A stretch of 64,000 nucleotides of DNA, from contig CAMDGX010000006.1 of the NCBI GenBank assembly GCA_945897825.1, forward strand, positions 1 to 64,000, written 5' to 3'. This document shows positions 18,183-54,747 of this stretch, one piece after another (position 1 is the stretch's first letter; every line of letters starts with the position of its first letter). A program made the position numbers and the translations under genes. The notes below the pieces were generated by a model, which did no database searches, had not been told where the DNA came from, and worked only from the letters and a program-made list of their open reading frames with translations. Origin of the DNA: Asaia bogorensis (GTDB lineage Bacteria; Pseudomonadota; Alphaproteobacteria; Acetobacterales; Acetobacteraceae).

Positions 18183-19595
18183 ATGGCACATGACGTTCTG
18201 CTGATGTCGCTGGACGAGCTTTCGGGGCATTACCAGAAGGGCACGTTGTCGCCGGTCGAGGTCGCCAAGGCGCATCTGGGGCAGTTGGCGGCGATGGAGC
18301 CGGTGCTGCATGCGTTCCAGATCGTGGACGAGGCGGGGGCGCTGGCGGCGGCGAAGGCGAGCGAGGCGCGGTGGCGGGCGGGGGCGGCGCTGGGGAAGCT
18401 TGATGGGGCGCCGGCGTCGATCAAGGACAATGTGGACATGAAGGGGTTCCCGACGCGGTCGGGATCCACGACGACGCCGGAGACCAAGGCGTTGGCGGAT
18501 GCGCCGGTGGTGGCGCGGCTGCGGGAGGCCGGTGCGGTGTTCCTCGGCAAGACGACGACGCCGGAGTTCGGGTGGAAGGGGATTACCGATTCGACTCTGC
18601 GGGGGGAGGCGACGCGGACGCCGTGGAAGGTTTCGCATTCCTCGGGCGGGTCGTCCGGTGGGGCGGCGGCGGCGGTGGTTTCGGGGATCGGGACCGTGGC
18701 CTTCGGGAATGATGGGGGTGGGTCGATCCGGATTCCGGCGGCGTTCTGCGGGGCGTTCGGGATCAAGCCGACGTTCGGGCGGGTGCCGCATCATCCGCTG
18801 GAGAGCCCGTTTGCCACCGTGGTGGCGGGAGGGCCGATCACGCGGACGGTGCAGGATGCGGCGACGACGCTTTCGGTGATGGCGCGGGCGGATGAGCGGG
18901 ATTGGTATTCGATTCCGCCGGCTGCTCCGGGGTGGCTGGCGGATTTGGTGCCGGCGGTGAAGGGGGTTCGGTTTGCGTGGTCGCCGGATCTGGGCGGGGC
19001 ACGGGCGGATGACGAGGTTTTGGGGGTGCTGGGGCCGGTGCTGTCGGTGCTGCGGGGGGCGGGGGCGGCGGTGGAGTCGGTCGGGCCGGTGATCGATCCG
19101 TTGAAGCCGGTGTTCGAGGATTTCTGGCTGGGGGGGTTTGCCAATCGGCTGCGGCAGATTCCGGAAGCGCGGTGGGAGGAGACCGACCCCGGGTGGCTGG
19201 CGTTGGCGAAGGCGGGGTTGGATATTCCGGTGGATCGGGTGCTGGCGGGGATGGTGGCGCGGCCGCGGCTGCATAACCGGGTGGCGGCGCTGTTTGCGAC
19301 GCATCACCTGCTGCTGACGCCGACGACGCCGCATGTGGCGCCGCGGGCGGACATTGCCTACCACTCGCAGGGCTATGACCGGTGGGATGATGGGGTGCCG
19401 TACACCCTGCCCTTCAACCTGACCGGGCATCCGGCGGCGACGATTCCGGTGGGGCTTTCGGCCTCGGGGCTGCCGGTGGGGCTGCAGGTGGTGGGGCCGC
19501 GGTTCGCGGAGCGGGCGATCCTGGAGGCGTGCCTGGGGATCGAGGCGCTGCTCGGCTTTCCCGCGAAATACGAGGGGCTGATGAAGGCGGGGTGA
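18183..19595 (+). CDS. Amidase signature family hydrolase
   Basis: A 470-residue amidase. The Ser-cisSer-Lys triad is visible as Lys81 (ASIKDNVD), Ser157 (HSSGGSSGGAAA) and Ser181 (GNDGGGSIRIPAAF), with normal spacing. It hydrolyses a carboxamide or related C-N bond; the family includes acyl-amide, indoleacetamide and urea-derivative hydrolases, and sequence alone does not choose. It lacks the neighbours expected for GatA. Start ATG 18183 follows GGAGGAAACC. Its coding strand is strikingly G-rich at third positions. Confidence 0.9.
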   Translation: MAHDVLLMSLDELSGHYQKGTLSPVEVAKAHLGQLAAMEPVLHAFQIVDEAGALAAAKASEARWRAGAALGKLDGAPASIKDNVDMKGFPTRSGSTTTPETKALADAPVVARLREAGAVFLGKTTTPEFGWKGITDSTLRGEATRTPWKVSHSSGGSSGGAAAAVVSGIGTVAFGNDGGGSIRIPAAFCGAFGIKPTFGRVPHHPLESPFATVVAGGPITRTVQDAATTLSVMARADERDWYSIPPAAPGWLADLVPAVKGVRFAWSPDLGGARADDEVLGVLGPVLSVLRGAGAAVESVGPVIDPLKPVFEDFWLGGFANRLRQIPEARWEETDPGWLALAKAGLDIPVDRVLAGMVARPRLHNRVAALFATHHLLLTPTTPHVAPRADIAYHSQGYDRWDDGVPYTLPFNLTGHPAATIPVGLSASGLPVGLQVVGPRFAERAILEACLGIEALLGFPAKYEGLMKAG

Positions 19596-19656
19596 ATTTT
19601 GTTTTGATTTCGTAATATTTAGGGCATGCGTGAGCGCCCCCCTTGCGAGGGCGTTC

Positions 19657-20082
19657 TCATGCGCGGGCGGTGGTGGGCGGGTCGCGCTTGGGACGGGCGC
19701 GGGTGGGAGCCAGGGTGAAGGTTCGCCGGGCGCCGGGGTTGCGGGACCACCAGATGCGGATGCGCAGCGGGCGCAGTTCGGGTGCGGGGCGGATGCGCGG
19801 GGTGTACGGGCGGGGGTTTCGGCGGCGCGCGGACGCGGTGCGGCGGGCACGCGAGAGCGGCGCGCGGGGTTCGCGGGGTTCGCGGGTGGGCGGCGGCGGA
19901 GGGAGGATGCCCTGGGCCCAGAGGGCGATCATGTCTTCCAGGCGGGCGAAGATGCGGGCGAGCAGGGATAGGATCAGGGCGTGCCCGGCATCGGGCAGCC
20001 AGCACGGCGCGGGGGTGGCCAGGACGGATTCGCGCAGTGCGGCCGCTTTCTCGGCCAGGGGAGAGGTGGGGGGGTTTGACAT
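19657..20082 (-). CDS. Small protein of unknown function, paralogue of the 54.3 kb gene
   Basis: A 141-residue protein. Residues 1-70 align with the product at 54252-54710: both begin MS, have a Cys/Trp block (APCWLPDAGHALI here, KCAWIPAGVHALI there), then LLARIFARLEDMIALW, a helix, then GILPPPP. The remaining ~75 residues are Arg/Pro-rich and unlike the paralogue. This alignment, not the frame length, decides strand and start, because a plus-strand frame of similar length runs opposite. I do not recognise the family with certainty. The helix-Pro hinge-basic tail layout could suit nucleic-acid or membrane contact; that is speculation. Confidence 0.65.
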   Translation of the reverse strand: MSNPPTSPLAEKAAALRESVLATPAPCWLPDAGHALILSLLARIFARLEDMIALWAQGILPPPPPTREPREPRAPLSRARRTASARRRNPRPYTPRIRPAPELRPLRIRIWWSRNPGARRTFTLAPTRARPKRDPPTTARA

Positions 20083-20096
20083 GATGGAGAGAGTGT

Positions 20097-20141
20097 ATCT
20101 AACTGTTAGTTAGATGGGAAGGGGTTTTTCTACGTACGTAG
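20097..20141. promoter_or_regulatory. Two palindromes in the leader of the small paralogous gene
   Basis: An inverted repeat ATCTAAC/GTTAGAT with a 5-base centre occupies 20097-20115, and a perfect 12-base palindrome CTACGTACGTAG occupies 20130-20141. Both sit within 60 bases upstream of the minus-strand gene that starts at 20082, in a locally AT-rich patch. Position suggests an operator for a dimeric regulator, but no regulator is encoded nearby. The paralogue at 54252 also has a GTTAGTTA stretch just upstream. Confidence 0.35.
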
Positions 20142-20220
20142 CTGGTTGCTGTTTGGGGGGAAGGAAGGGGGTGGCGGTTACCTTTCGGGATCGGGACCGC
20201 GCATCAAGCGTGGGTCCTTC

Positions 20221-20299
20221 ACTTCGTTCAGGATGACGAGGCTTGTGGGCACTTCGTTCAGGATGACGAGGCTTGTGGGCCCTTCGTTCAGGATGACGG
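20221..20299. repeat. 30-bp direct tandem repeat (about 2.6 copies)
   Basis: Two identical 30-base units, 20221-20250 and 20251-20280, begin ACTTCGTTCAGGATGACG and are followed by a partial third unit to 20299. The core CTTCGTTCAGGATGACG resembles a short dispersed motif common between genes in many GC-rich bacteria. No protein is encoded. It lies between the small paralogous gene and the end of the RidA gene. Confidence 0.85.
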
Positions 20300-20331
20300 G
20301 GGTTGGGGGGCGCGTTGCCCCCCTGCCCTGG

Positions 20332-20796
20332 TCAGTCGCGGATGGCGGCGACGAATTCGATCTCGACGGGGGTGTTGCGGGGCAGGACGGCCATGCCGAT
20401 GGCGGAGCGGGCGTGGCGGCCGTGTTCGCCGAAGATTTCGCCGAGCAGCTTGCTGGCGCCGTCGACGACCTGGGCCTGGTCGGTGAAGTCGGGGTGGGAG
20501 GCGACGAAGCCGACCACCTTCACCATGCGCTTGACGCGGTCGAGCGAGCCGAGGGCGGCGCGGAGCGAGGCCAGGCCGTGGAGGACGCACATGCGGGCGC
20601 AGGCCTGGCCGGTCGGGATGTCCACCCCTGCCCCGAGCTTGCCGGTGGCGACCAGGGTGGTGTCGCCGGTCCAGGGGAGTTGGCCGGAGACCCAGGCCAG
20701 GCCACCTTCGACGACGACGGGGACGTAGGCGTAGAGCGGCGGCTTGGCGGGGGGCAGTTCGATGCCGAGTTCCTTCAGGCGGGCTTCGAAGCTCAT
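20332..20796 (-). CDS. RidA family (YjgF/YER057c/UK114) protein
   Basis: A 154-residue RidA-fold protein of the slightly longer subfamily (about 150 residues). The N-terminus LKELGIELPPAKPPLYAYVP and the active-site strand VLPRNTPVEIEFVA are characteristic; the Arg of that strand is the residue that binds the carboxylate of imine substrates in RidA. Canonical members hydrolyse reactive enamines/imines; the longer subfamily often sits in catabolic clusters. Divergent from the enoyl-CoA hydratase gene over 97 bases. Confidence 0.88.
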   Translation of the reverse strand: MSFEARLKELGIELPPAKPPLYAYVPVVVEGGLAWVSGQLPWTGDTTLVATGKLGAGVDIPTGQACARMCVLHGLASLRAALGSLDRVKRMVKVVGFVASHPDFTDQAQVVDGASKLLGEIFGEHGRHARSAIGMAVLPRNTPVEIEFVAAIRD

Positions 20797-54015: not shown

Positions 54016-54210
54016 GGATTCTTCTTTTTGTGAACAAAAAGAAGCAAAAAAACTTTTTCCATTCCGCGCGATGCGCTCTGTGACTTCCATATCCGCGCGC
54101 CGACGTCACTCCATCCACTGATCAATTGACCCGGATCTCCTCGTTGGCTTTGAAGGAAGTTTTTTTGCTTCTTTTTGTTCACAAAAAGAAGATTCTTTCG
54201 CTTGCCTGAA
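54016..54210. repeat. Compound palindromic intergenic element, copy 3 (long form)
   Basis: Left hairpin 54021-54044 (arms CTTCTTTTTGT, loop GA) and right hairpin 54168-54191 (same arms, loop TC) with CAAAAAAACTTTTTCCATTCC inside the left and GGAAGTTTTTTTG inside the right. The interior is longer (about 120 bases) and the inner ATCCATTTGC/GCAAATGGAT pairing seen in other copies is lost. It follows the last gene of system 4 and precedes the small paralogous gene. Confidence 0.83.
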
Positions 54211-54251
54211 TCCCCTTGCCTCCATCGGATAAGTTAGTTATGTTCCCTTCA

Positions 54252-54710
54252 ATGTCAGTTTCATCCACCCCCTTGGCCCGGCAGGTGGCCACCATCCGCG
54301 GCGCGATTCTCACGCAGGAGAAGTGCGCCTGGATTCCGGCGGGGGTGCATGCCCTGATCATCGCCTGCCTGGCCCGCATTTTCGGCCGCCTGGAGGAGAT
54401 GATCCGCCTCTGGCAATCCGGCCAACTCCCCCCGCCCCCTGCCTCGCGCCCCCATGCCGCGCGCCGCGCCTCCCTCACGCCGCGAATCCGCCATTGGCCG
54501 ACCGCGCGCCCACGCCATGCCAGGTCCTTGCCGATCCCGGACTCCGCCTCGGCCATCGCCGTCCCGGCCGTCTCGTTCCCCATGGCCACCCCGCGCGCCG
54601 GTCGCAAATCAACCGCGACGCGCCCTGCGCACCACCGACCCGACGCGCCCATTCCGCAAAAATCCCAAGCAACCCAAACGCCCTGGCACGTCTATTTCAT
54701 TACGATTTAG
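54252..54710 (+). CDS. Small protein of unknown function, paralogue of the 20.0 kb gene
   Basis: A 152-residue protein. Its first 68 residues match the product at 19657-20082: MS start, KCAWIPAGVHALIIACLARI, FGRLEEMIRLWQSGQLPPPP. The tail is Arg/Pro/Ala-rich and unrelated. The ATG at 54252 is chosen because the alignment of the two genes, including the bases just upstream (GTTAGTTA then a pyrimidine-rich stretch then ATGTCA), starts there; ATGs at 54216 and 54240 lie outside the conserved part. No known domain recognised. A good hairpin follows at 54748. Confidence 0.65.
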   Translation: MSVSSTPLARQVATIRGAILTQEKCAWIPAGVHALIIACLARIFGRLEEMIRLWQSGQLPPPPASRPHAARRASLTPRIRHWPTARPRHARSLPIPDSASAIAVPAVSFPMATPRAGRKSTATRPAHHRPDAPIPQKSQATQTPWHVYFITI

Positions 54711-54747
54711 AAATTAAATACCATAATTCGCTGAAACCAGGCCAGAA

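Follow-up and report, generated by a model that had tools for sequence, protein, structure and literature searches.

Two small open reading frames in the Asaia bogorensis DNA analysed here (64,000 nt of contig CAMDGX010000006.1; the whole stretch is called the window) are probably members of a large, previously unnamed superfamily of stand-alone small-gene cassettes, and the reading toward which we lean is that these are dispersing gene cassettes whose small proteins are under selection. The unit is approximately 550–700 bp long and is made up of a 5' module, a reading frame that includes a conserved helical segment, a class-specific body, and a 3' element. As judged from sequence comparisons, the units are intergenic and number in the tens per genome, their presence varies by species, and common sites hold different members. 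The family is common also in parts of the Acetobacteraceae.

The first open reading frame (copy 1; class A, 141 aa) occupies positions 19657–20082 on the minus strand, with its ATG at 20082–20080 and its stop codon at 19659–19657, and the second (copy 2; class A, 152 aa) occupies positions 54252–54710 on the plus strand. Both had been described in a first-pass annotation and both exist, but the former is a minus-strand gene, the plus strand of 19657–20082 being interrupted by stops. The shared head described there is borne out and far exceeds chance (51% identity over 59 residues, 59 bits, E = 2e-15 for the whole genome), as are the HALI-ARIF-RLE-MI-LW pattern and the Pro run. The Cys of the proposed Cys/Trp block is not a feature of the family; the invariant columns in 53 heads are L40, R42, and W54. 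The copy 1 protein has a helical head until approximately residue 65 and an Arg/Pro-rich tail thereafter; the tails of the two copies diverge, as had been noted, to the point of giving no alignment.

The likeness of the pair, previously seen as limited to the head, in fact reaches into the DNA outside it: the two copies also share a 5' module and a 3' element. The 5' module of copy 1 (20084–20129, minus strand; model R2, 22.8 bits, E = 5e-6 in the window) is a promoter-like TTCCCA...TACACT with the ATG 9 nt after the -10-like box, and that of copy 2 (54209–54259, plus strand; R2, 32.3 bits, E = 5e-9) is CCCCTTGCC...AAGTTAGTTATGTT, where 8 nt separate the -10-like box from the ATG. The 3' element of copy 1 (19597–19630, minus strand; model R1, 27.0 bits, E = 3e-7) is located 26 nt past the copy 1 stop and abuts the stop codon of an amidase gene (TGA, 19593–19595). 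In copy 2 the element, CACGTCTATTTCATTACGATTTAGAAATTAAA (54686–54718, plus strand; R1, 24.8 bits, E = 1.5e-6), contains the end of the reading frame and its stop codon. At the two copies, a simple sigma-70 scan called no promoter, and an intrinsic terminator scan called none at the 3' element itself.

The paralogy of the pair is real, but its extent had been put too low. At E ≤ 10 the copy 1 head has 44 matches in the genome; approximately 30 of these are below E = 0.01, and some are at chance level. The profile search of the head that had been proposed as a check, run with 26 heads, finds 53 places in this genome, 20–83 in each of eight congeners, and, in two other genera, 84 and 23; the remaining Acetobacteraceae members searched have no more than one place each. 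When matches to the protein, the 5' module, and the 3' element are pooled, there are 82 distinct loci in 4.93 Mb; the cassettes make up about 1% of the genome. The relatives that carry the family are records filed under Acetobacteraceae, Asaia, or Rhodospirillales, and this genome and most of the relatives are draft, probably metagenomic, assemblies. Pfam, NCBIfam, and PHROGs contain no family for classes A, B, or C, and further family proteins scanned in Pfam gave none; Rfam gave no match, the single PADLOC hit, to class C, is at chance level (E = 0.05), no match came from plasmids (searched with classes A and C) or from phages (searched with class C), and open-access papers searched for such a family yielded nothing on point. 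By a simple codon-model call, the flanking genes of the 25 cassettes read on both sides are convergent in 12, co-directional in 8, and divergent in 5. In this genome, 22 of 79 cassettes are situated within 600 nt of a contig end versus 5% expected, an approximately fivefold excess; near-identical copies, or GC-rich tails, could have broken the assembly there.

Loci reached via the 3' element encode proteins other than class A. In class C proteins (~207 aa), which are conserved along their whole length, an Arg/Pro linker joins the conserved N-terminal half to a second domain (LPRGFAW...QAGRLLRPLCxALGI), after which comes a C-terminal helix. The two-helix head of class A aligns with class C residues 48–97 (hhalign probability 96%, E = 2e-9), and the helical segment common to the two classes ends in LWQAGxLPxP. 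Classes B and D have the 5' module in common with the others and carry a short GLVPDWIL or GPGPNRGLRP motif. Class C was found in 30 of the 150 family genomes, in 22 genera, several with approximately 20 or more copies where about 20 candidates were scored per genome.

The invariant residues of class C are mainly Pro, Arg, and Trp, unlike a catalytic set, and an enzyme is therefore unlikely. In fold searches with the class C AlphaFold model (pLDDT 85, pTM 0.69), the best Foldseek match had E = 2.7 in PDB and E = 0.64 in a viral library; the best VIA result (Z = 6.7, to four-helix proteins) is within chance for helical bundles, and a sequence search against solved structures gave nothing convincing. 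A doubtful guess is that the protein is a small, non-enzymatic helical autoregulator, possibly binding nucleic acid. The adaptor or nucleic-acid-associated role suggested earlier for the family is neither shown nor excluded.

In most members, the 5' module contains TTGCA followed by GTTAGATATAAT, with a -10-like box 6–9 nt before the start codon. When 28 copies are aligned on GTTAG, the common form is (A-rich)CCCTTGCA, 11–12 variable bases, and (A)GTTAGATATAAT, with the start codon approximately 6–9 nt on. Because TTGCA and the TATAAT-like box are spaced by approximately 17 nt, the module is read as a promoter whose transcript would begin on the start codon or immediately beside it. Most family mRNAs should accordingly be leaderless, and the module predicts many co-regulated leaderless mRNAs within one cell. 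Four class A genes (C32, C20, C121, and C58) start approximately 45 nt further down, behind AAAGG, and the R2 places without a head match, as read, are family genes that start 34–45 nt past the model start.

An inverted repeat of GTTAG often covers the -10-like box, and on the evidence of the sequence the module may combine a promoter and a leaderless start with an operator. In copy 1, the repeat ATCTAAC-TAACA-GTTAGAT (20115–20097) spans the -10-like box and is related to the perfect palindrome GGTTAGTTATATAACTAACC found in the module of the congener G006 directly before the ATG. With up to two mismatches allowed, the palindrome GTTAGTTATATAACTAAC precedes class C genes in eight of eight occurrences in G006, occurs once in our genome, before a family gene, and was not found in G003. 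Whether it might lead to a regulator gene was also considered, and this was rejected because it is present before family genes only.

The 3' element is palindromic and 30–35 nt long, with the consensus CGCACGCCCTTTTTATTnCGATATCGnAACAAAA, and in 32 copies (strict score) it is located 370–520 nt past the head start. Model R1, built on 32 copies from our genome, finds additional copies there with other classes, and finds the element in most loci of three congeners outside the model building and in several other genera. The element either overlaps the end of the reading frame, in varying frames, or sits past the stop, and is therefore a feature of the DNA or RNA level. Considered as a hairpin, the palindrome has no compensatory changes and shows less covariation than shuffles do, which makes an RNA hairpin less likely and favours either a site in double-stranded DNA or no such site.

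This bears on two known routes of mobility. In an integron-like scheme, the 3' element would be an attachment site and a tyrosine recombinase would move the unit. The cassettes resemble integron gene cassettes in being mobile-looking units with one small reading frame and an imperfect palindrome at the 3' end; moreover, the integron core site has the form GTTRRRY, which GTTAGAT in the 5' module fits, and the genome has at least two tyrosine-recombinase-like genes. However, the two recombinase hits are weak and such hits occur in 14 of 14 control genomes, the best match to the integrase model TIGR02249 reaches 77 bits against a cut-off of 265 (in a genome 96.7% complete), the units are scattered rather than arrayed and have their own promoters, and an attC-type fold is not supported by the palindrome. 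We regard this scheme as very unlikely.

Slightly less probable still is mobilisation by a single-strand (Y1) transposase acting on non-autonomous elements comparable to REP sequences or derivatives of IS200/IS605. Palindromes near both ends and scattered intergenic copies would fit such elements. A PF01797 match, present in 5 of 14 control genomes, is absent here, though at 96.7% completeness a gene may have been missed, and covariation lends the hairpin no support. REP elements in 3'-UTRs of Bradyrhizobium (PMC5082802) are one example of dispersed intergenic repeats in bacteria. The cassettes share with MITE-like and REP-like repeats the many intergenic copies and the palindromic DNA, but they carry a selected protein gene and a 5' module of their own, and in the two window copies no pair of inverted repeats joins both unit ends; the pair I6 of copy 2 is outside the unit, within terminator-like repeats. 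No recombinase or transposase was tied to the unit.

The composition of the class A genes differs between head and tail. The GC contents by codon position are 73/73/79 in 26 tails (7,143 nt) versus 79/52/89 in the heads, and at each codon position the tails have approximately 49% C and 26% G, compared with 33% and 36% in genes. From this near-absence of codon periodicity and the C-rich coding strand, it follows that the Arg/Pro content of the tails is largely a matter of nucleotide composition. Stops are scarce in all three frames of the tails (2/5/11 versus approximately 24 expected from base composition) and rarest in the head frame; in 17 of the 26 copies, that frame and the 3' element are in phase. 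Of the earlier readings of the tail, drift in GC-rich DNA comes closer for class A, although plain drift does not agree with the strand-asymmetric composition or with the phase of the 3' element. In two close class A copies, L007 (C121) and L008 (C20), the tails read through a dispersed repeat (CTCTGTCTCTCTG..CTCTTTGTG) into peptide, showing that unrelated intergenic repeats occur inside tails.

The tails also bear on the notion that the units are not protein genes at all, RNA or DNA being what is conserved and the reading frames being by-products of GC-rich sequence. The want of codon structure in the tails agrees with this, as do the nucleotide-level character of the 5' and 3' elements and the varying frames in which the latter overlaps the reading frames. 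Against it are the normal codon periodicity of the heads, the confident fold of class C, the lack of an Rfam match, and the ratios of nonsynonymous to synonymous change (dN/dS) of 0.11–0.24 in close class C duplicates of our genome; we consider it the least credible of the explanations.

The dN/dS values of the class C duplicates rise to 0.40–0.43 when the C14 copy is included and are 0.33–0.62 in G006 and G003. For class A heads, they are 0.11–0.17 in two close pairs, 0.39–0.60 in others of the subgroup, and mostly approximately 0.4–1 in wider pairs. The first-pass annotation would have been contradicted by a lack of homologues and of purifying selection on the head; instead, tens of homologues per genome and low dN/dS in close pairs were found. 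Class C genes at the same site in different species give values near 1 (0.73–1.14), with dS probably underestimated in this GC-rich DNA. Such pairs were tried as orthologues and rejected owing to strong differences inside the element.

Comparison between species points to turnover of the cassettes. At locus 1, the stretch 19596–20341 of the window (no strand assigned), between convergent amidase and RidA-like genes, is an insert relative to six congeners. Of its approximately 745 bp, which hold copy 1, its 5' module, and its 3' element, approximately 200 bp with other repeats are outside the unit. In G001, G004, G006, and G008 the ends of the flanking genes abut, leaving an empty site of zero length, and in G003 and G005 short gaps separate them; thus the cassette is missing in these six. 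G002 has approximately 4 kb of something else there (partly read), and no matching site was obtained in G007. Locus 2 is empty in G005 and has other genes in G001. No target-site duplication was established, where junctions were read closely at one empty site between species approximately 85% identical.

By our own count, 16 of 80 congener cassette loci are at the site of a cassette of our genome. At five such sites with class A in both species, the partner ranks 34–68 among 73 other heads by identity, so the class A genes at one site resemble each other no more closely than random members do, and three are reversed; at some common sites, class A is swapped for class C. Recent copies within our genome match at 89–93% and have unrelated flanks. 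C96 matches C87 and C46 at approximately 92% from CCCCTTGCATCG (the -35-like box) onward, with an unrelated upstream flank; the match of C164, C138, and C14 begins at or near the module start; and in the sister species G006 the homology of L249 and L250 breaks off precisely where the R1 element ends. Upstream homology extends 100–400 bp past the module in G006 and for C87 and C46, so the 5' boundary is not constant.

These patterns may be set against an ordinary gene family with fast birth and death, in which normal recombination makes the duplicates, loss is easy, and the pieces that survive are just those from promoter to terminator, the rest being unselected; the 3' element would then be a transcription end or an RNA-processing signal. 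The purifying selection on class C speaks for it, as do the class C sites common to different species, where the orientation is the same in 13 and opposite in 1, and the recent pairs with homology beyond the unit. It accounts poorly for the opposite-orientation replacement at class A sites, the exchange of class A and class C, the abrupt loss of homology that several independent pairs show at the 3' element, and the zero-length empty site at locus 1. We hold it to be possible rather than likely. Tens of small paralogues of unknown function are a feature of lineage-expanded small-protein families of alphaproteobacteria, which the cassettes resemble in number; the cassettes differ in having a standardised 5' module and 3' element across differing bodies, and in the exchange of members at the same site.

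If dispersing cassettes are taken as the preferred reading, the unit from the 5' module through the 3' element would be copied to new sites by machinery acting in trans. The inverted repeat would serve as an operator, and a regulator common to the copies, perhaps the encoded protein, would silence them through it, although repression via the GTTAG palindrome, with the encoded protein as its possible agent, is a guess. The class C protein would be the functional product, as the dN/dS values below 1 in recent duplicates suggest, and in class A copies selection would be left on the head only. More tentatively, the cassettes may represent a bacterial mobile unit of a new kind, namely a self-contained cassette of operator-promoter, leaderless small-protein gene, and palindromic 3' element, in tens of copies per genome and with members exchanged at fixed intergenic sites, in which the encoded protein, and no transposase, is selected and perhaps represses all copies. 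If the units move, their ends and the empty sites in sister species are a direct handle on the mobilisation route; if they do not, they are unusual small genes with a standard start and end and a changing middle.

Several other repeats occur near the cassettes. Three near-copies of GTCATCCTGAACGAAG are present upstream of copy 1 (window positions 20200–20310), in the part absent from congeners. A few cassettes have a second palindrome, TACGTACGTA, ahead of the promoter-like module: at 20130–20141 of the window (minus strand, CTACGTACGTAG), upstream of the C39 and C35 cassettes, and at L209. Finally, a near-palindromic, AT-rich dispersed repeat, AAGTTTTTTTGCTTCTTTTTGTTCACAAAAAGAAG / CTTCTTTTTGTGAACAAAAAGAAGCAAAAAAACTT, follows many genes in the genus and often forms facing pairs around cassettes (window positions 54020–54060 and 54157–54192; also, for example, L133, L177, and L188); it looks like a family of bidirectional terminators.
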